Of a DNA stretch of 45,535 bases, positions 1 to 23,682 are shown one piece after another. This DNA comes from a virus: IMG/VR virus record IMGVR_UViG_3300017917_000263, positions 1 through 45,535 of that record, one strand, 5' to 3'. Each line of letters starts with the position of its first letter. The first letter of the stretch is position 1. A model generated the notes under the pieces. That model was not told where the DNA came from. It saw only the letters and a list, made by a program, of their open reading frames with translations, and searched no databases. Made by a program: the position numbers and the translations under genes.

Positions 1-358
1 CTGGAGCACTGTCAAAAGCTGCTTTGAGTCTAGCATTTCTTTCCTTCCAACGCTTCATTCTTTCTTTATAATCTCTTTCACGGCGTGCTCTGTCTCTTAT
101 ATAAGTGTATGGTTGTGGTTCGGGGGTAGGCTGATATTCACCCTTGTTCATCTTGTCCCAGAGTTTTATGATGAAGTCACTACCGCCATCGGGGGAGATA
201 GAGTAAAGTAATCCACTACCTCCGGGCAATGGACGGACAACTTTTTCTCTACCATAAGCAGTGTCTAAGTATTCTTTGCCACCTTCAAAGCCGCTTTTAT
301 CCAGCCGTTCTATTTCTTGAACCACCGTTGATTCAGATAGAAATTCCGAAATTTTCAT
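1..358 (-). CDS. Putative head-internal protein with capsid-targeting-like N-terminus (C-terminus outside window)
   Basis: The first 119 codons are present; the gene runs off the left edge. The protein starts MKISEFLSES, close to the leaders of the 1210, 2428 and 4625 genes and similar in pattern to the T4 capsid-targeting peptide, with a possible prohead-protease site after FLSE. The visible body is hydrophilic, with a Gly-rich patch near residues 50-60 and a strongly basic stretch near residues 88-112. There is no recognised domain. The start ATG overlaps the stop of the Dps-like gene (TAATG), so translation is probably coupled. It closes a five-gene run starting at 4625. Head location is inference from the leader alone. 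Confidence 0.6.
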   Translation of the reverse strand, partial: MKISEFLSESTVVQEIERLDKSGFEGGKEYLDTAYGREKVVRPLPGGSGLLYSISPDGGSDFIIKLWDKMNKGEYQPTPEPQPYTYIRDRARRERDYKERMKRWKERNARLKAAFDSAP

Positions 359-798
359 TACTCACGCTCTTTTTTAAGAATACTTCGTATAAACCAGGCT
401 TTCTTTCCATACAAATCTTGTAGTTCAGCCATATAATTTGCTATACCTTGTTGCTGTTCAGCAGTAGCTTGTTCAAACATAGGTAATATTAACTGTAACA
501 TTTTATCAATGTCTTGTAAAGTTTCAGCAAACATCAAACTAGCACGTGGGATTTTAGTTTGGTCTTGTATTACAGTTAACTCAGCATAGCGTTGTAGGCT
601 GCCAGGAGTGTAATGTCCTAGTATTCTAATGTATTCAGCAATTCTATCAATGGTATCGTTTACATCATTATATAATGTATCGTAGAATTCATGGTATTGT
701 GGGAAATCACTACCTTCAATGTTCCAATGAAAGTTTTGAGACTTGATAGCAAAACTTTGTGTGCTTGCTAATAATATTTTTAGACTATCTGACAACAT
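358..798 (-). CDS. Dps/ferritin-like protein
   Basis: The 146-residue product has the length and helical pattern of the Dps family (miniferritins that oxidise iron with peroxide; many also bind DNA). His24, His36, Asp40, Asp51 and Glu55 have exactly the spacing of the Listeria Dps ferroxidase ligands (H31, H43, D47, D58, E62), inside the typical FHWN and DRIAEYIRILG segments, so the iron site looks intact. The C-terminus is basic (KKERE). The gene lies between genes for proteins with capsid-targeting-like leaders but has no such leader itself. A likely AAAGGT ribosome site lies before the ATG. A role in protecting or compacting phage DNA is inference. Confidence 0.85.
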   Translation of the reverse strand: MLSDSLKILLASTQSFAIKSQNFHWNIEGSDFPQYHEFYDTLYNDVNDTIDRIAEYIRILGHYTPGSLQRYAELTVIQDQTKIPRASLMFAETLQDIDKMLQLILPMFEQATAEQQQGIANYMAELQDLYGKKAWFIRSILKKERE

Positions 799-13762: not shown

Positions 13763-14455
13763 TCAATCGGGTTGTTTCTCTAATTTATACTTTTTACTGA
13801 CCATTCCGTCAAACATAAGCATAAACAGAGAAAGCACACTTTCGTCATTATAGTTTATAAAGTAATGACTACTGCTATAATGACGTTTCCAAGTATACTT
13901 AGGATTATCTTTTAACCAATTTGACAGTGCCCTACTGGGTACAATAACTGTATCAGTGCCTTTGTAACGTTCTACAAAAGAACGAACTTTCTTATACGTA
14001 TCTTCGGAAACACGTTTGGTCTTAAAGTAAATCCTATATTTGTACTTAGGTTCCTCTTTGAAGTATTTGATACCTTCAGGGATCGTGCTATCCACTTCTG
14101 TAATGTCTATCGTAAAACCCTTAGATTCTAAATTTGTCAGAAATGACAAATCGTTAGAAAATACAGATGCTACATTGCCTTCAATCCTAATGGTGTGAGA
14201 TTTATCCTTGACAGGTAAAGCATTCTTCCATTCTAGGAATTCTATACACTTATCAACATCACAATGTTTCCATCTAGTTTTGTGTGACCGAACACGCTCT
14301 TTAATTTCGTCAGCCGTATCACACCACCAGATTACAGTAATACCATTAATGTATACTCTAGCCCTATATTGATACTTGCTATAATATAGACCATTTCTAT
14401 GGTCTATAAAACTTACTCCATCAGTCCTTTTCTGTGGTAACTTGGATAATGCCAT
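13763..14455 (-). CDS. Unknown basic protein downstream of clpA
   Basis: The product has about 230 residues, rich in Lys, Tyr and aromatic residues (YYSKYQYRARVYINGITVIWW near residue 30; KYKYRIYFKTKRV near 140). It could be two similar alpha/beta halves, each starting with an aromatic beta strand. I recognise no family. It overlaps the 3' end of the ClpA-like gene by about 35 bases, so it is co-translated with it and may be functionally linked, perhaps as an adaptor or substrate-delivery factor (speculative). I chose ATG at 14455; a GTG two codons earlier (14461) is possible. Confidence 0.65.
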   Translation of the reverse strand: MALSKLPQKRTDGVSFIDHRNGLYYSKYQYRARVYINGITVIWWCDTADEIKERVRSHKTRWKHCDVDKCIEFLEWKNALPVKDKSHTIRIEGNVASVFSNDLSFLTNLESKGFTIDITEVDSTIPEGIKYFKEEPKYKYRIYFKTKRVSEDTYKKVRSFVERYKGTDTVIVPSRALSNWLKDNPKYTWKRHYSSSHYFINYNDESVLSLFMLMFDGMVSKKYKLEKQPD

Positions 14456-16703
14456 CTTCACCTACTTTTGCAATTAGTTTTTGTTGAACATCAAAGACAA
14501 TTTCATCACCTTCGATTAGTGCGTTAATTGTAGCATTTTTAATCCGCTCAAACAAGATTTTTTTCGATAGAGGTACCCTAATTAGTTCATCAATTTTACG
14601 AGCTAAGGGTCGGGCGCCCATCTTCTTGTCATAGCCCTTATCCGCAAGATACTCAATAACATTCTCACTCATGTTAAATGTGATATCGTGTGTATCTTTC
14701 AGAGTTTTCTTCAAGTCATCAGTAAATTTAATTACGATTTTCTTGATTGCTAGCATGTCTAGTTTACCGAACTTACAGATTAAATCGATACGATTTCTAA
14801 ATTCGGGCTTAAAGAATTCTTTCAAGGCTTTATCATCTTCACCCGTCTTTTCTTGCGAGCCAAAACCAATAGTATTCTTTTCACTATCACTTGCCCCCAA
14901 GTTACTGGTCATGATGATGATACAATTTTTAGCATTGACTTCTTTGCCATTAGTACCTGTAACTCTACCATCGTCAAGCAATTGTAAGAAGATGTTGAAA
15001 ATATCTGGGTGTGCTTTCTCTACTTCATCAAATAGTAGAATAGAATGTGGATTTTTACTCAAGTCGTTGATAAGTTTGCCTCCACCGAGACTACCTTCTC
15101 CGTAGCCAACATATCCTGGGGGAGCACCTAGTAATGACGACACATTGAATTTTTCAGAATATTCGCTCATATCATACTTGATAAGTGGCATGTCCAGATT
15201 GCTACTTAGCAGTCGAGCCAGTTCAGTTTTACCTGTGCCTGTAGGACCTAAGAACAAGAAGCTAGCAAGAGGTTTCTTTTCATTACCGATACCAGCGAAA
15301 CTTACATAGACTCTTTCAAGTACTTTATCAACTGTTTCTTCTTGACCAAAGAGTTTATCCTTGACGTTAGTTTCAAGTGACTGAATACGGTCATAATGGT
15401 CACCTTTCAACTTGTCAGCCTTAACACCAACCATGCGCTCGACTTGCTCATAAATCATGTCTTTGGTGATTTCTGCTTCTTTGTTCTCTAGTACCCGTTG
15501 TTTAGCACAGGCAGCATCAAGCAAATCAATCGACTTGTCAGGATTCTTGCGGTCGTGAATATATCGTGTAGCTGAGGTTACTGCCGCCTCAATTGCTTCG
15601 TCTGTAATATTCACATTATGGAACTCGTTAAGGCGACTGCTCAGTCCCTTGAGAATCTTAACAGTAGATTCATTGCTAGGTTCGTCAATTCCTACACGAT
15701 AGAATCGGCGCATCAACGCACGATCCTTCTCGAAACTTTCGTAATATTCTTCCCAAGTTGTACTTGCGATAACTTTTAGATTGCCCTTAGTGATTGCGGG
15801 TTTAATCATGTTAGCAAAGTCAACACTAGAATTGTTAGCAGAACCTGCTCCCTTCATAGTGTGCGCTTCATCAATGAACAATACCGCATTCTTTTTAGTA
15901 ATCAATGCCTCAAACACAGCCTTGATTTTTTCTTCAAAGTCACCGCGATACTTACTTCCGGCAAGAAGTGTTCCTACTTCAATACTATAGACTTCGTGAT
16001 CCAAAAGAAACTCAGGGACATTTTTGTCTACAATCATTTGTGCTAGACCCTCCGCAATCGCAGTCTTACCTACGCCAGGATCACCAACCATCAATACGTT
16101 AGACTTGAATTTCTTAGCCAGTACGTTAATGATATCGTTAAGTTCAGTAGCACGTCCAACTAGAGGTTCTAGTTTATTATTACGAGCCATTTCGCTTAGG
16201 TTCGTAGTATATTCTTCAAGAATTTCACTAGCTTGCTGGTCAGTAAGTTTGTTTGGCATATCTGTGTTTTTATACATCTTCTGCCAATAGGGTACAAACT
16301 CATTCTTATTGATTCCATATTTCAACAAGAAATAGTGAGCATGACTGTTAGTTTCGCTAGCGATACTCAAATACAAATCAATGGTAGTTACTTGCTTACG
16401 ACCAGTAAACAATACTTGCGTGATAGAACGATTCATTACACGTTCTAGTGAATTTGTCTTGCGAGGCTGTACTTCTTGCCCTTGTAGATTTTTAGCTTCG
16501 ATAGACTTTAAGTTATCGACATACAAAGTCAACTCTTTAATTAGAGTGTCTGTATCGGCACCGAAACTATCAAGACATTTTTTAAATGGAGAATGCGTTA
16601 CTAGTGACAGCAACAAATGTTCGATTGTACAGTATTCATGGCTCCTACTTTTCGCCAAACTTACCGCTTGCTCAATGATAGCTTCGATTTCTGGACTGTT
16701 CAT
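14421..16703 (-). CDS. clpA: ClpA-like AAA+ unfoldase with ClpP-docking IGF loop
   Basis: At 760 residues it is the length of bacterial ClpA. The N-domain (residues 1-145) is a Clp N-type helical repeat. AAA+ domain 1 has Walker A GDPGVGKT (207-214) and Walker B VLFIDEAH (274-281); domain 2 has Walker A GPTGTGKT (486-493), Walker B ILLFDEVEKAHP (555-566) and FRNR (635-638). There is no ClpB-type middle coiled coil. Residues 612-614 are Ile-Gly-Phe in the place where ClpA carries its Ile-Gly-Leu docking loop, so host ClpP binding is predicted. The AAAGGAT ribosome site lies 16 bases past dnaJ; both are probably read from the promoter at 17540. It may degrade host factors or process phage proteins. 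Confidence 0.93.
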   Translation of the reverse strand: MNSPEIEAIIEQAVSLAKSRSHEYCTIEHLLLSLVTHSPFKKCLDSFGADTDTLIKELTLYVDNLKSIEAKNLQGQEVQPRKTNSLERVMNRSITQVLFTGRKQVTTIDLYLSIASETNSHAHYFLLKYGINKNEFVPYWQKMYKNTDMPNKLTDQQASEILEEYTTNLSEMARNNKLEPLVGRATELNDIINVLAKKFKSNVLMVGDPGVGKTAIAEGLAQMIVDKNVPEFLLDHEVYSIEVGTLLAGSKYRGDFEEKIKAVFEALITKKNAVLFIDEAHTMKGAGSANNSSVDFANMIKPAITKGNLKVIASTTWEEYYESFEKDRALMRRFYRVGIDEPSNESTVKILKGLSSRLNEFHNVNITDEAIEAAVTSATRYIHDRKNPDKSIDLLDAACAKQRVLENKEAEITKDMIYEQVERMVGVKADKLKGDHYDRIQSLETNVKDKLFGQEETVDKVLERVYVSFAGIGNEKKPLASFLFLGPTGTGKTELARLLSSNLDMPLIKYDMSEYSEKFNVSSLLGAPPGYVGYGEGSLGGGKLINDLSKNPHSILLFDEVEKAHPDIFNIFLQLLDDGRVTGTNGKEVNAKNCIIIMTSNLGASDSEKNTIGFGSQEKTGEDDKALKEFFKPEFRNRIDLICKFGKLDMLAIKKIVIKFTDDLKKTLKDTHDITFNMSENVIEYLADKGYDKKMGARPLARKIDELIRVPLSKKILFERIKNATINALIEGDEIVFDVQQKLIAKVGEDGIIQVTTEKD

Positions 16704-16718
16704 TAAATATCCTTTAAA

Positions 16719-17531
16719 TTATTTGTTTTTAGAACGCAATATGCTGTCGGTTATTGCTGTGTCTATTCTATCAGGTATATATGGTTTAAGCAAGATAAAT
16801 TGGTCTCCAAACTCTCCATTAACTGGTAAACCCTCACGTGATAATCGTAACTTGTGCCCCGGCTGTGTTTTGGGAGGAACTTTGACCTCTAATGTTTTAC
16901 CGGAAACTGTTGTAAATTTGAACTCTCCGCCCACAATCAAATCAAATATATTAATGTCTTGAACACTGTATAGATGCGGACCATCCCGCTCAAACTTAGC
17001 ATTTGGCATTACCCTAAATTCTACTAATAAGATAGCGTCTTTGACAAGATTATCATAACGCATCGTTTGGCCATCTTCGACTCCACGCGGTATCTGTATT
17101 TTTATAATTTGGTTCATGCCATTGATGCCGAACTGTAATACCTGTTCGCCACCGTTATAAACTTGTTCTAAAGTTAAATGGACAATAGTTCTGTAACTAG
17201 GCATGTGTGGGCGATTTCCAAAAGGACTACCCGTAAACATACCATTGAAAATGTCGTTAATGTTGAACCCATTCATATTGAATTGGAATCCACCGGGGAA
17301 CCCACCCATGTTGTTAAAGTTAGGTCCATTTGACCCAAAAGGATTTGGGTTATCGTATTGTTGTTTCTTTTGTGGATCGCTTAGTGTTTCATAAGCCTGT
17401 TGAATTTTTTGAAACTGTGCGGTATCACCACCCTTATCCGGGTGATGAATACCTGCCATTCTTCTGTATGCTCTTTTTATATCGTCTTGTGTAGCGTTTT
17501 TTGCTATACCTAAAGTATCGTAATAGTCCAT
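16719..17531 (-). CDS. DnaJ/CbpA-like Hsp40 co-chaperone
   Basis: This is a 270-residue type II Hsp40. The J domain (residues 1-65) has the HPD motif at 30-32 (HHPDKGG), needed to stimulate DnaK. A Gly/Phe/Asn-rich linker runs from about 68 to 108, followed by a beta substrate-binding region (TIVHLTLEQVYNGG, then IQIPRGVEDGQ and EVKVPPKTQPGHKLRL). There is no Cys zinc finger, as in CbpA. It would recruit host DnaK to chosen substrates, perhaps feeding the ClpA-like unfoldase encoded next. It has no ribosome site; the sigma70-like promoter lies eight bases before the ATG. Confidence 0.92.
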   Translation of the reverse strand: MDYYDTLGIAKNATQDDIKRAYRRMAGIHHPDKGGDTAQFQKIQQAYETLSDPQKKQQYDNPNPFGSNGPNFNNMGGFPGGFQFNMNGFNINDIFNGMFTGSPFGNRPHMPSYRTIVHLTLEQVYNGGEQVLQFGINGMNQIIKIQIPRGVEDGQTMRYDNLVKDAILLVEFRVMPNAKFERDGPHLYSVQDINIFDLIVGGEFKFTTVSGKTLEVKVPPKTQPGHKLRLSREGLPVNGEFGDQFILLKPYIPDRIDTAITDSILRSKNK

Positions 17532-17568: not shown

Positions 17569-17576
17569 TATTTATT
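17569..17576 (-). promoter_or_regulatory. Late promoter-like AATAAATA upstream of dnaJ
   Basis: AATAAATA overlaps the stop of the 18138 gene and runs straight into the TTGACA box of the dnaJ promoter. It matches seven of eight positions of the T4 late consensus. Confidence 0.4.
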
Positions 17577-18138
17577 TTGCTGCACCTTCGATTTTTTCTT
17601 TTGTTCTACCGTATGCGGCAATACCTAATACTGCACCCATAGCGATATGATATAAACCAGCACCTTGTAGTGTGAGTGGTTGCCATTGACTTGTGACATT
17701 ACCTTTACTCAATGCTTGTAATAATGACCAAAGAATAGGGAATAAAACAAAATCTGCTGTACATGTTGCCATGTATACCCAACCCATAGCTGGACGCCAC
17801 TTTTTGTTAATCCAATCAGTGTTGTCATTTTTTACTAAAACGTCAGCACCTTCTTGCATTGCGCCACCGGTGTTCTTTAGTGACTCACCTTGGTTATGTA
17901 CTACTTGAACTTGCGGAGTACTCGATTGTGTGTAATTCATTTGATTGTTTTGCACCATTGTAGGTTGACCAAATCCAGACATGCTAGGAGCTCCAAACGA
18001 GCTACTAGCCCCAAATGAACTACCTTGAGGGAATGATGGTACCATAGGATCAGATGCCAATGTTGCGTGATGTTCATCATTTGTTGCTATAGCATTATCT
18101 TGTGGACCTGATTTTCTTGCTAATAATGTTGTTGGCAT
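17572..18138 (-). CDS. Membrane protein, holin candidate
   Basis: The 188-residue protein has a long polar N-terminus rich in Ser, Gly, Gln and Asn (residues 1-105). Two hydrophobic segments follow: one after NKKWRPAMGW (about residues 115-140) and one near 158-178 (LYHIAMGAVLGIAAYG), ending in a charged tail (RTKEKIEGAAK). The K-x-WRP entry and G-R-T/S-x-EK exit resemble the three-TM holin family of gene transfer agents and phages, hence the holin suggestion. It is not next to the endolysin gene (28202). Alternatively it is a virion membrane or tail-tip protein. The start is closely coupled to the 18676 gene (TAATATG). Confidence 0.55.
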   Translation of the reverse strand: MPTTLLARKSGPQDNAIATNDEHHATLASDPMVPSFPQGSSFGASSSFGAPSMSGFGQPTMVQNNQMNYTQSSTPQVQVVHNQGESLKNTGGAMQEGADVLVKNDNTDWINKKWRPAMGWVYMATCTADFVLFPILWSLLQALSKGNVTSQWQPLTLQGAGLYHIAMGAVLGIAAYGRTKEKIEGAAK

Positions 18139-18139
18139 A

Positions 18140-18676
18140 TTATAACCCCGCTTTACTTATAAAATCTCTTAATAAATTATCAGGTTTATCAAATACGTTT
18201 TTAGTACCTAATCCTGATAGTTGTCTCATTTCATTGAGACCTTTTTCTTTACTGTCTCTATATTTTTGAGGACTTAGAATCAATATAGATTTAAGAATGT
18301 TCACATCACAATCGTAATCTTCATCGTTATACTTGATTGTCCAGTCTTTCTTTGGAATCGCTGTTAATGTCTCCATATCTTCGATGAGTTCGCATATTCT
18401 TTCTGGAACACTAGTTCTTCGATTCATTTCTACGAAAACTAAATATTTTCCGGGTGTTAATTCACCGTCACTAATCTGAGCATCTAACACATAATCGTAT
18501 CCACGCTCTAACCAATTAACTAAATCTTCACCCACTTGTTGACCTTTGACAATAAAGGCTAAGGTTACGATAGCGTCATCGTCACCCATTTTAGCAGAAT
18601 ATTCATCTACGGTGACTTCTGGTATGATTTGATTTTCTAAATCGTGGTAGTCTAGACCTTCTTTAAGAACTTTCAT
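18140..18676 (-). CDS. Conserved-type phage protein of unknown function
   Basis: The 178 residues are acidic in the first half (VTVDEYSAKMGDDDAIVTL) with an alpha/beta pattern, and include YLVFVEMNRRTSVPERICELI and a C-terminal helical tail. There is no signal peptide, membrane segment or known catalytic motif. The AGGAGG ribosome site lies inside the last codons of the upstream gene, and the start overlaps its stop (TAATG), so the two products are made together and may form a complex. I do not assign a function. Confidence 0.7.
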   Translation of the reverse strand: MKVLKEGLDYHDLENQIIPEVTVDEYSAKMGDDDAIVTLAFIVKGQQVGEDLVNWLERGYDYVLDAQISDGELTPGKYLVFVEMNRRTSVPERICELIEDMETLTAIPKKDWTIKYNDEDYDCDVNILKSILILSPQKYRDSKEKGLNEMRQLSGLGTKNVFDKPDNLLRDFISKAGL

Positions 18677-19299
18677 TACATCAATCCTCCTAGGCCGCCT
18701 CCGGGTGCGGATTGACCCGGTGGTTGTTGTCCTCCCATACCAGGCGCTTGTTCACCAGATTGAGCCTGGTCAGTCTGATTACCTTGTTTATCTAAATCTT
18801 CTTCATACGCAGTATCTAGTTCTTCTAAATCTACAGTTTGTCCTGCCAAGTCAATAGATCCCTCACGTATATCATTCATTAAGTCTTTTGGCATTTGAAT
18901 TCTAACTAACCAAACTTCTCGCTCGGTCATTTTAGGATAGTGAGTTCCGGGCTTATAATCTCCCGGATCTTTGATTTCTACTGGTACTTTAATTTTAGTC
19001 TGTTTAAATTTAATGTTACAGCCCACGCTTAATAAACGCTTTGCTCCTCTTGGATCGGGCATAAGTTTTTTAGGATACATGAATACACAGCTTACATCGT
19101 AACGTCTAACGTCTGGACCGTCAACTAACTCACCTAATTCCCAATTTTTGAAGGCGTATAAATCGCTTTCATCTAACACACGCTCAAAATCAAGTAAGGT
19201 ACTCATTGTACCGTCGCTGGTATACACGCCCTTTATGGTCGATATAATACTAGAATAATCTATATCATTAAAGAATTTGTCTGCTGGATTATTGCTCAT
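18676..19299 (-). CDS. Unknown phage protein with Gly/Pro/Gln-rich tail
   Basis: The protein has 207 residues from the ATG at 19299 (MSNNPADKFFND). The N-terminal about 150 residues form a mixed fold with VEIKDPGDYKPGTHYPK and EREVWLVRIQMP; a Glu/Asp-rich segment and a disordered tail (GMGGQQPPGQSAPGGGLGG) follow. I prefer 19299 because the late promoter GATAAATA ends four bases before it. An in-frame ATG at 19335 would need RNA from the upstream motif at 19360 and has no ribosome site. The function is unknown; it is coupled to the 18676-starting gene downstream. Confidence 0.65.
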   Translation of the reverse strand: MSNNPADKFFNDIDYSSIISTIKGVYTSDGTMSTLLDFERVLDESDLYAFKNWELGELVDGPDVRRYDVSCVFMYPKKLMPDPRGAKRLLSVGCNIKFKQTKIKVPVEIKDPGDYKPGTHYPKMTEREVWLVRIQMPKDLMNDIREGSIDLAGQTVDLEELDTAYEEDLDKQGNQTDQAQSGEQAPGMGGQQPPGQSAPGGGLGGLM

Positions 19300-19303
19300 G
19301 TTG

Positions 19304-19311
19304 TATTTATC
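19304..19311 (-). promoter_or_regulatory. Late promoter GATAAATA abutting the 19299 start codon
   Basis: Only four bases (CAAC) lie between the motif and the ATG, with no ribosome site, as at 10546. A TATCAT/ATGATA inverted repeat overlaps its upstream edge. Confidence 0.55.
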
Positions 19312-19359
19312 ATAAAATGATATTTGTATGAGCATTTAAAATGCTAGGGGACAGCCTAA

Positions 19360-19468: not shown

Positions 19469-20254
19469 TTGAGCAAACGAAAAACCGGCGCTTTACGCCA
19501 ACAAGAACAAGACACACGCTACGCACACTCAAAGAAATATGATACACAAACTTTTTATGTGAAAGAATCTAAAACAATCAACTTCGACCAAAGTAGGACT
19601 AAGGTAAACACAAGACCTATCACACTAGTCCCCAAATCTTTGAATCAAGAAAAATATATCCTGGCACTTTTAGATGAGGCTACAGATATCGTTGTAGTCG
19701 GGGGACCTGCGGGTACGGGTAAAACTTACCTAGCTATGCAGGCCGCTATTAAGGCACTAAAAGAAGGTTCAGTAGAGCGTATTATCTTGACAAGACCGGC
19801 AGTTGGTGTTGAAGATGAAAAGCATGGATTTTTGCCCGGAGATTTAAATCAGAAAATGGAACCATGGACAAGACCATTGCTTGACGTACTGCGTGAATAT
19901 TATACAGCACGTGAAATCGCCCACATGTTAGAAGAACAGATAGTCGAAATCGCACCCCTAGCATTCTGTCGAGGTCGAAACTTTAAAAATAGCTTTATAA
20001 TATTAGACGAGGCTCAAAACGCAACTCCTGGTCAACTCAAAATGATTATGACTAGAATCGGTAACGGCAGTAAGATTGTAATTACTGGAGACATTGAACA
20101 AGCCGATAGAAAGACAAACGATAACGGTTTGTTAGATTTACAAAATCGGTTAAGAAAGGGGGTGATTCCAGGATTGCAGCAATGCCACTTTGAACTAAAA
20201 GATGTTCAAAGACACCGCATCATCGAACATGTGCTGAAACTATACAGCAATTAA
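19469..20254 (+). CDS. phoH: PhoH-like P-loop ATPase
   Basis: The 261-residue product has the PhoH ATPase core: Walker A GGPAGTGKT (residues 78-86), ILTRPAVGVEDEKHGFLPGD (substrate/helicase-like segment), Walker B FIILDEAQN (176-184) and a conserved VITGDIEQ. An N-terminal basic region of about 50 residues precedes it. PhoH genes are common in marine phages; the role may be RNA- or nucleotide-related but is unproved. The start is TTG at 19469, set by the AAAGGAG site six bases before it. It is one of only two plus-strand genes, with its own promoter region and a terminator shared with the convergent 20521 gene. Confidence 0.92.
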   Translation: MSKRKTGALRQQEQDTRYAHSKKYDTQTFYVKESKTINFDQSRTKVNTRPITLVPKSLNQEKYILALLDEATDIVVVGGPAGTGKTYLAMQAAIKALKEGSVERIILTRPAVGVEDEKHGFLPGDLNQKMEPWTRPLLDVLREYYTAREIAHMLEEQIVEIAPLAFCRGRNFKNSFIILDEAQNATPGQLKMIMTRIGNGSKIVITGDIEQADRKTNDNGLLDLQNRLRKGVIPGLQQCHFELKDVQRHRIIEHVLKLYSN

Positions 20255-21448: not shown

Positions 21449-22138
21449 TTATTTCTTTTCACCAAAAAGTTGTAACAAAGACAAGAACATATTAATGAAA
21501 TCTAGGTATAATGTCAATGCCCCTGAAATTTCAGCGGTTGTTGAATCGCCAGAATCCATTAGTTGCTCACGAATTTTTTGGGTGTCATAAGCGGTAAGAC
21601 CCAAAAAGATAATGATAGCAATTGCTGAGATTACCATTTGGAATACTGTACTACCTACAAAAATATTCACGATACTCGCAATGATAATTGCAATCAGTCC
21701 GATAAACATGAACTGTCCGATACTATCTAAATTTCGTTTAGTAAAGTATCCATAAACGCTCATAATCATAAAGAGTACACCTGAACCCATAAATGCGGAA
21801 ACGATACTACCCATATTGTACACCGCAAAAATAGTTGCGAAACTTAAACCCATAAGTCCGGCAAATCCACTAAGCACCAATACAGAACCCATAGTCCCGA
21901 TTCCGGCATTTAGTAAAATAGGTACAAGAAAAATGAATGCTAGAGGGGCAAAAATAACGATCCATTTTGTGAATCCAGTAAAGAAAAACTCTAACATTGC
22001 CGGGCTAGTACCTACCATGTAGCTTACAAACATACTAATGAACACTGCCAATGCCATGTAGCCATAAACACGACCCATAGCTTCATTGATTTGTGTCGCA
22101 GTTCTGTATGTTACATCATTAACTGTAGTATTAAGCAT
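21449..22138 (-). CDS. Bax inhibitor-1 (BI-1/YccA-like) membrane protein
   Basis: The 229-residue protein has a short polar N-terminus and about seven hydrophobic helices. The BI-1 signature is at the C-terminus: GLTAYDTQKIREQ, then ISGALTLYLDFINMFLSLLQLFG, and a short charged tail (EKK). In bacteria, YccA of this family modulates the FtsH protease and related members act as proton-sensitive calcium leak channels. The phage copy may dampen host FtsH or membrane stress during infection (inference). The ribosome site is AAGGAGA. It lies between the 22477 gene and the clamp loader, so it is probably expressed early to middle. Confidence 0.9.
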   Translation of the reverse strand: MLNTTVNDVTYRTATQINEAMGRVYGYMALAVFISMFVSYMVGTSPAMLEFFFTGFTKWIVIFAPLAFIFLVPILLNAGIGTMGSVLVLSGFAGLMGLSFATIFAVYNMGSIVSAFMGSGVLFMIMSVYGYFTKRNLDSIGQFMFIGLIAIIIASIVNIFVGSTVFQMVISAIAIIIFLGLTAYDTQKIREQLMDSGDSTTAEISGALTLYLDFINMFLSLLQLFGEKK

Positions 22139-23175: not shown

Positions 23176-23682
23176 CTATTTTAAGAATTCATCTATGTTT
23201 AAACCATAGTGTAGACTATTTATACGATGAATTCCTATAAGATACAATACATAGCTACTAACACTACTACCCCTACCCACACCCCAAACAATATTGTGCT
23301 TTCTCATTGTGTCTACCAAATACTTACAATAACACAATAATGGGAACATGTCTCGTTCTTGGAATTTTATTAATTCCTCACCCACACGCTGTAACTCGTA
23401 TTCTTCCACACACAGATCCAAGACATATTTGGCTATATCAAAGTTCTTATATTCATCGGGCATGTACCAATTAGACTGTTGTAAGTTATCAAAATCTGGT
23501 ACAGAAAGATTCAGTTCTTTATAAATTTCTATTGTGGGGATGTTTTTGATATCCAGAGATTCTGGAAAATGAATTGGTTTCTCTACCAAAGCATTAGTAA
23601 TCGTTTGGTCAGGATTGGACAAGTAAAGATCACATAAATCTTTCTCTGTTAAGATTTGTCTACCGTATATATCTGTACCCAT
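23176..23682 (-). CDS. DnaE-like (PolIII alpha) palm fragment, catalytic Asp missing
   Basis: The C-terminal about 60 residues of this 168-residue protein match the bacterial PolIII alpha segment just before the active site: FPLLCYCKYLVDTMRKHNI, then GVGRGSSVSSYVLYLIG (from Gly134) and a final YGLNIDEFLK. In DnaE this is followed within about ten residues by the P-D-F-D-x-D catalytic site, which is absent here because the gene stops. It probably has no polymerase activity and may bind nucleotide or compete in the host replisome (inference). It has a sigma70-type promoter and no ribosome site. Confidence 0.65.
   Translation of the reverse strand: MGTDIYGRQILTEKDLCDLYLSNPDQTITNALVEKPIHFPESLDIKNIPTIEIYKELNLSVPDFDNLQQSNWYMPDEYKNFDIAKYVLDLCVEEYELQRVGEELIKFQERDMFPLLCYCKYLVDTMRKHNIVWGVGRGSSVSSYVLYLIGIHRINSLHYGLNIDEFLK

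Follow-up and report, generated by a model that had tools for sequence, protein, structure and literature searches.

A phage ClpA-type unfoldase with a predicted ClpP-docking tripeptide, probably part of a phage-encoded ClpA-ClpP-ClpS protease

The window analysed here is the whole of a linear IMG/VR record, IMGVR_UViG_3300017917_000263, with a length of 45,535 bases. Its minus strand carries a gene for a ClpA-type unfoldase of 760 amino acids (14421..16703), with an N-domain, the D1 and D2 AAA+ modules and a D2-small domain. The initial annotation had put an open reading frame at this place; the frame is real and begins with an ATG, with the correction that it lies on the minus strand, as the plus strand is full of stops. 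Within it, the codons of Ile612-Gly613-Phe614, the predicted ClpP-docking tripeptide, occupy 14862..14870 (minus strand), and the N-domain (about residues 1-145, with a Clp_N match) is encoded by 16269..16703 (minus strand). A gene for a dnaJ-like co-chaperone of 270 amino acids lies 15 bp upstream of clpA (16719..17531, minus strand), and a gene for a basic protein of 230 amino acids with an isoelectric point of 9.4 follows clpA (13763..14455, minus strand), its start codon set about 35 bp before clpA ends. We compared the locus with its lineage, that is, the window ClpA together with 80 proteins 73-86% identical to it (n=81). Directly upstream of clpA there was a DnaJ gene in 75 of 75 lineage loci, and downstream of clpA the basic protein had a homologue in 76 of 76, which bears out the earlier assignment of the three genes to one operon.

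The top family match of the 760-residue protein was NCBIfam ClpA, with 782 bits over residues 4-724, while ClpB scored 629 bits. PHROG 4871 ('ATP-dependent protease') was matched at full length (773.9 bits, profile positions 9-759 of 764). The best sequence match in the PDB was E. coli ClpA (E 7e-175), and a ClpC identity was rejected on its lower scores in the same search. The protein is ClpA-like from end to end and both of its ATPase sites are intact, as are the arginine-finger, pore-loop and sensor-2 residues, in agreement with the earlier description of a full-length unfoldase with two AAA+ modules. The Walker A and B motifs, the arginine fingers and the pore tyrosines were invariant in all 81 lineage ClpAs and in all 80 members of a distant set of phage ClpAs (37-47% identical), with one exception, the D1 pore tyrosine, which is Phe in 14 of the distant proteins. 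From the D1 arginine fingers to the D2 P-loop there are 152 residues; the corresponding stretch has 154 in E. coli ClpA but 272 in ClpB. The ClpB middle domain is therefore missing, as had been claimed, and this length and the scores led us to reject a ClpB identity. The earlier interpretation as a ClpP-dependent unfoldase and not a ClpB-type disaggregase, which has a coiled-coil middle domain, is supported. The AlphaFold model of the protein had a mean predicted local distance difference test (pLDDT) of 80.9 and a predicted template modelling score of 0.57, and at this latter value the placement of one domain against another is uncertain. Its best structural matches in the PDB were the ClpC chains of ClpC-ClpP complexes and ClpA or ClpAP chains.

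In E. coli ClpA, the flexible IGL loop spans residues 610-628 (PMC9663308). Ile612-Gly613-Phe614 of the window protein aligned exactly with the Ile-Gly-Leu of E. coli ClpA, which places the tripeptide in the docking loop, as first proposed; the AlphaFold model shows it as coil of low confidence, flanked by helices 604-608 and 622-630. IGF was present in 81 of the 81 lineage ClpAs. This alone says little, because 290 of the 760 columns are invariant in the lineage. In the distant ClpAs the invariant columns number 98 of 760; Gly613 and Phe614 are included in them, and most of the neighbouring positions belong to the more variable residues of the protein. Residue 612 of the distant set was Ile in 77 proteins, Val in two and Leu in one, so that IGF occurred in 77 of 80 and VGF or LGF in the rest. 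Gly613 and Phe614 were thus invariant across 161 phage ClpAs (81 lineage and 80 distant), and their invariance amid mostly hypervariable neighbours in the distant proteins is the signature of a kept contact. The tripeptide has drifted in the RaK2 group (121Q, RaK2, CBB, XbC2 and Munch, with Vibrio phage 2.275.O beside them), where we found IGM, IGV, LGM, MGM, MNM and IGV.

Then, whose ClpP would such a loop engage? Where a lineage contig extends 68 kb or more beyond clpA on the downstream side, it encodes ClpP (ten of ten), and where it extends 52 kb or less it does not (none of 26). Nine of the ten carry clpP at a distance of 56-73 kb downstream, on the strand of clpA. The remaining one, L025 (IMGVR_UViG_3300027749_002876, 524565 bases), has two ClpP genes in opposite orientation; ClpA, ClpP, ClpS and ClpX each have two places on this contig, in opposite orientations, and it may be an assembly chimera of two phages. 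A lineage lacking ClpP was considered and rejected, as every absence sits in a contig that ends before the expected clpP position. A ClpP-family protein was also found in nine of nine isolate genomes (Atu_ph07, Phosso, 121Q, Callisto, RaK2, CBB, XbC2, Vibrio 2.275.O and Munch). With E. coli ClpP, the lineage ClpP shares 60-64% identity and the Ser-His-Asp triad. Tyr62, Phe82, Ile90, Met92 and Leu114 of the docking pocket are kept as well. The ClpP of the RaK2 group is a distant one, at about 34-38% identity to that of E. coli, and its pocket is changed, for example Leu114 to Gly and Phe82 to Cys, Asn, Ser or Tyr. A joint change of the ClpA tripeptide and the ClpP pocket is as expected of a private pair. 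The role of the RaK2-group ClpP is less certain because of this distance and because some records label the protein a head maturation protease; one ClpP peptide was detected in CBB virions (PMC5259590). Outside the lineage, ClpP was found in seven and ClpS in four of ten large contigs, several of them incomplete, and the set may not be universal.

The adaptor ClpS follows the same pattern. Among 19 lineage contigs searched for both proteins, ClpS was present in precisely the ten that bear ClpP, and it was found in all nine isolate genomes examined. Two phage ClpS queries run by tblastn against 50,697 phage records matched 23 and 70 records; among the matches listed, compared by name, these were ClpA-bearing jumbo groups, except for contigs labelled Acinetobacter phage MD-2021a and one short gut fragment. 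The MD-2021a records (L083, CAKLQF020000008.1 and CAKLQH020000043.1) carry ilvA, argC, clpS-clpA and other bacterial genes, and look like host chromosome contigs. In the lineage ClpS, the N-degron pocket is kept at N34, D35, T38, M40, H66 and L99, and M62 is Thr. On its ClpA-facing side Glu79 is kept, and Lys84 is kept or, in two proteins, Arg. The E. coli ClpA residues that contact ClpS are Glu23, Glu28, Thr81 and Arg86 (PMC12493166). An N-domain comparison, as proposed with the initial annotation, showed that all four are kept in the window ClpA, as E23, E28, T83 and R88; position 23 is Gln in 48 of the 81 lineage ClpAs. Across 20 genomes, ClpA distances correlated with those of ClpS (Mantel r 0.80, p 0.0005) and of ClpP (r 0.71), and within the lineage the correlation with ClpS was r 0.79 (p 0.003). 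Such correlations show long co-residence and not contact, since they are expected of any co-inherited genes.

Judging from these sequence comparisons, we favour as fairly probable the reading that the product of the window gene is the unfoldase component, ClpA, of a ClpA-ClpP-ClpS protease made by the phage and supported by DnaJ. The virus would then probably bring its own protein-destroying machine, rather than just borrowing that of the host. All parts of the machine, with intact active and contact residues and a conserved linkage, are present in the sequences compared; we infer that the complex assembles and that this phage has its own ClpP and ClpS, as its relatives do. The six IGF loops of a ClpA hexamer would dock into the clefts of a phage-made ClpP 14-mer. 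Phage-made ClpS would bind the ClpA N-domain and deliver proteins with N-terminal Leu, Phe, Tyr or Trp (N-degrons), the presumed substrates, which ClpA, using ATP, would unfold and thread into ClpP. Upstream of degradation, the co-transcribed DnaJ together with DnaK, from the host or from the phage where present, may keep substrates or virion proteins soluble. Inside infected cells, the machine would serve to turn proteins over and to control their quality.

Several observations weigh against this reading. The curated cut-off of NCBIfam TIGR02639 ClpA (993 bits) was missed by the window protein, and for this reason we file it as a phage ClpA-type protein (PHROG 4871) and not as a TIGR02639 equivalog. 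The ClpP search of the 45.5-kb window was empty, and no separate ClpS search of the window was made; the missing ClpP is what truncation predicts, because the window has just 14.4 kb downstream of clpA. Of the searched contigs, those nearest to the window, with ClpA 82-86% identical, all end short of the expected clpP position. Within the lineage, the correlation of ClpA and ClpP distances was not significant (r 0.21, p 0.13). ClpX, which is phage-encoded as well, would compete with ClpA for ClpP. A search of 18 records for a phage Aat transferase gave no hit, and we rejected Aat as the supplier of N-degrons; without it, N-degron substrates must derive from host enzymes or endoproteolysis.

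The initial annotation had the phage ClpA dock on host ClpP and redirect it to substrates chosen by the phage. We regard this as unlikely, and as the main mechanism it is not supported, since ClpP and ClpS of their own are found in relatives whose sequence reaches far enough. The empty ClpP search of the window is compatible with it, and the IGF loop and the ClpP pocket are still of bacterial type in the lineage, which makes cross-docking plausible. Against these stand the ClpP genes of every long-enough lineage contig and of all isolate genomes examined, and retention of ClpP and ClpS across such divergence would be unexpected in a phage for which host ClpP was enough. As the docking interface is of bacterial type in the lineage, use of host ClpP may occur additionally. 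Quite improbable, in our judgement, is a remodelling or assembly chaperone for virion proteins that works independently of ClpP with DnaJ as its partner, a role of the kind proposed for jumbo-phage ClpA and ClpX (PMC7824862). The place of clpA among virion genes and beside DnaJ fits such a role, as does the drifted IGF loop of the RaK2 group. Yet in a loop that otherwise varies, the docking residues rank with the most conserved positions, ClpP and ClpS are conserved along with ClpA, and the protein lacks the ClpB middle domain for coupling to DnaK. Moreover, CBB gp233, gp234 and gp236 were detected in virions by mass spectrometry, and ClpA, gp235, is unmentioned in the text or table of the paper that reports them; with its flanking proteins detected, ClpA probably does not belong to the virion. 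A host ClpA acquired by horizontal transfer and without a selected function in the phage, to which the homology with bacterial ClpA (about 40% identity) might point, is highly improbable in view of the hundreds of confirmed IMG/VR relatives (337 and 598), the catalytic residues invariant in all 161 proteins, the gene order conserved with Callisto, and a tree in which phage ClpAs group apart from the two bacterial ClpAs sampled (limited sampling, modest support).

Further chaperones occur in the lineage phages, where ClpX, Hsp20 and in some cases DnaK accompany ClpS and ClpP. The window DnaJ-like protein has a J domain with the HPD motif (PF00226) and a DnaJ C-terminal domain (PF01556); no zinc-finger domain was found in it by Pfam. 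ClpX was above the cut-off in 17 of 25 records, with none above it in the RaK2 group, and DnaK in five of 28. Contig G004 (348.7 kb) encodes ClpX, DnaK, Hsp20, ClpS, a SprT-like metalloprotease and ClpP on one strand in about 8 kb, the names Hsp20 and SprT being given by sequence inspection and not by family search; its ClpX has a zinc finger and its own IGF loop. Among large lineage contigs, a compact one-strand ClpX-(DnaK)-Hsp20-ClpS-SprT-ClpP cluster was seen in L121 (1253-8943 of contig IMGVR_UViG_3300023174_000038), and a layout resembling that of G004 in L122 and L123, the latter without DnaK. In many distant loci a peptide deformylase, named by sequence motif, lies between dnaJ and clpA, as it does in Phosso. 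We noted such a gene upstream of clpA in L161, L162, L163, L167, L171, L176, L187 and L082. Peptide deformylase as a general partner of ClpA was rejected, with four of 18 and in other lineages only.

In 76 of 77 lineage loci, the frame of the basic protein opens before clpA has ended, with an overlap that is mostly 22-40 bp; some greater values come from choosing the longest open reading frame. This overlap suggests coupled translation. The protein is fast-evolving (25-53% identity) and its fold is well predicted (AlphaFold pLDDT 92.6). A comparison of the fold with the PDB gave no match at E<=0.001, and its BFVD matches were eight uncharacterised phage proteins, a phage-only fold. An assignment of function from the fold was rejected on these grounds, and the earlier idea that the protein supplies substrates found no support. 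The basic protein is possibly a modulator of ClpA.

Beyond dnaJ lie a holin-like membrane protein (17572..18138, minus strand; PF11351 GTA_holin_3TM, phrog_3427), two virion structural proteins of 178 and 219 amino acids (18140..19335, minus strand; phrog_13138 and phrog_12928) and, divergent from the clpA operon, phoH (19469..20254, plus strand; PF02562), in the same place and orientation as in Callisto. The order PhoH, 219-residue protein, 178-residue protein, DnaJ, ClpA is common to the window and Pseudomonas phage Callisto of the PA5oct group, from which we take the block to be old. The gene set of the window is that of a myovirus with T4-like features, comprising tail sheath, tail tube, neck and structural proteins, PhoH, a clamp loader and a holin. 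Sited among tail, neck and holin genes, the clpA operon is probably made late. A T4-type late promoter upstream of it found no support: the core TATAAATA occurs once in the window, at 23217-23224 (minus strand), where shuffles gave a chance expectation of 7.15, and is thus markedly depleted. A BI-1 family membrane protein is encoded at 21449-22138 (minus strand; PF01027, 170 bits). The E. coli member of this family, YccA, restrains the protease FtsH, and the gene may accordingly be a further phage proteostasis gene. A ferritin-like domain protein lies at 358-798 (minus strand; PF00210, 60.7 bits), close to the fragment end.

As the window spans the entire linear record, it is very probably a 45.5-kb piece of a jumbo-phage genome. 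The search of the phage collection for near relatives of the window at the DNA level gave none. The lineage is one of jumbo myoviruses known from metagenomes, probably freshwater ones, and the window virus presumably infects lake bacteria. A 3.5-kb contig in a Chitinophagaceae metagenome-assembled genome (CANFGZ010000235.1, L230) encodes a lineage-type phage ClpA, 75% identical; it is probably a mis-binned phage contig and weak evidence of host. The phage DnaK was closest to Burkholderiales-type DnaK among plasmid records (72%, versus 66% for E. coli), a weak pointer to a possible betaproteobacterial host.

The nearest well-described system is E. coli ClpA in ClpAPS (PDB 1KSF, 1R6B, 6W1Z and 7UIV). 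Domain order, pore loops, the absence of a middle domain, the docking loop and the ClpS contacts of the N-domain are alike. The window ClpA differs in being 40% identical, in having IGF for IGL and a short Gly-rich insertion (GYGEGSLGGG) in the D2 pore loop, and in adjoining dnaJ and not clpS. The jumbo-phage ClpAs of PHROG 4871 (RaK2, 121Q, CBB and Munch; Atu_ph07; Phosso; the PA5oct group) belong to the same family and come with their own ClpP and ClpS, but are only about 34-42% identical to the window ClpA. Atu_ph07 and Callisto share the DnaJ-ClpA adjacency, and Phosso has the order DnaJ, peptide deformylase, ClpA. The RaK2 group is unlike the window lineage in its divergent docking tripeptides and ClpP pocket and in having no ClpX over the cut-off. 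Other large phages of aquatic origin also have ClpA, DnaJ, DnaK and Hsp20; in moraphages, ClpA is a core gene and DnaJ, DnaK and Hsp20 occur in some (PMC12619734); unlike in the window lineage, ClpP and ClpX go unmentioned in that paper. The account of Atu_ph07, in the parts available, lists ClpX, ClpA, ClpB, ClpP, ClpS and DnaJ with suggestions of assembly and replication roles, and is there a parts list without docking-loop, pocket or linkage analysis (PMC6102473). Lone phage ClpS or ClpP have been described as tools acting on host ClpAP, with AMM43882.1 as an example of phage ClpS (PMC7824862). This accession falls in the CBB range; ClpA and a ClpP-like protein are encoded by CBB too, so that the host machine is not necessarily what the adaptor acts on.

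Phage ClpA is already known from RaK2-like phages, Atu_ph07 and PA5oct, and this gene alone is an ordinary result. ClpA beside DnaJ with ClpP, ClpS and ClpX in one genome has likewise been listed before (Atu_ph07, PMC6102473; PMC7824862; moraphages, PMC12619734), and our literature search for a published phage ClpAPS set gave just the Atu_ph07 list and the jumbo-phage review. As far as this search shows, the new elements are the docking-loop test, the positional proof of ClpP and ClpS in the lineage, the finding that ClpS is nearly confined to jumbo phages with ClpA and, for the RaK2 group, a tripeptide and a pocket that have drifted together. A wider proposal, which we hold only tentatively and with some doubt, is that several jumbo-phage lineages keep a complete N-degron protease independent of the host (their own ClpA, ClpP and ClpS, with their own ClpX, DnaJ and sometimes DnaK and Hsp20), and that both sides of its docking interface have diverged in the RaK2 group, which would insulate the phage machine from host ClpA, ClpX and ClpP.

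Phage Clp proteins have so far been read singly, as hijackers of host proteolysis or as assembly helpers. If ClpA, ClpP and ClpS travel as a matched set, large phages install a regulated protease of their own, which directly raises the question of what it degrades: defence proteins or regulators of the host, or virion proteins that are damaged. The RaK2 group, where docking tripeptide and ClpP pocket have changed together, offers a natural test of how the pairing of unfoldase and peptidase evolves.

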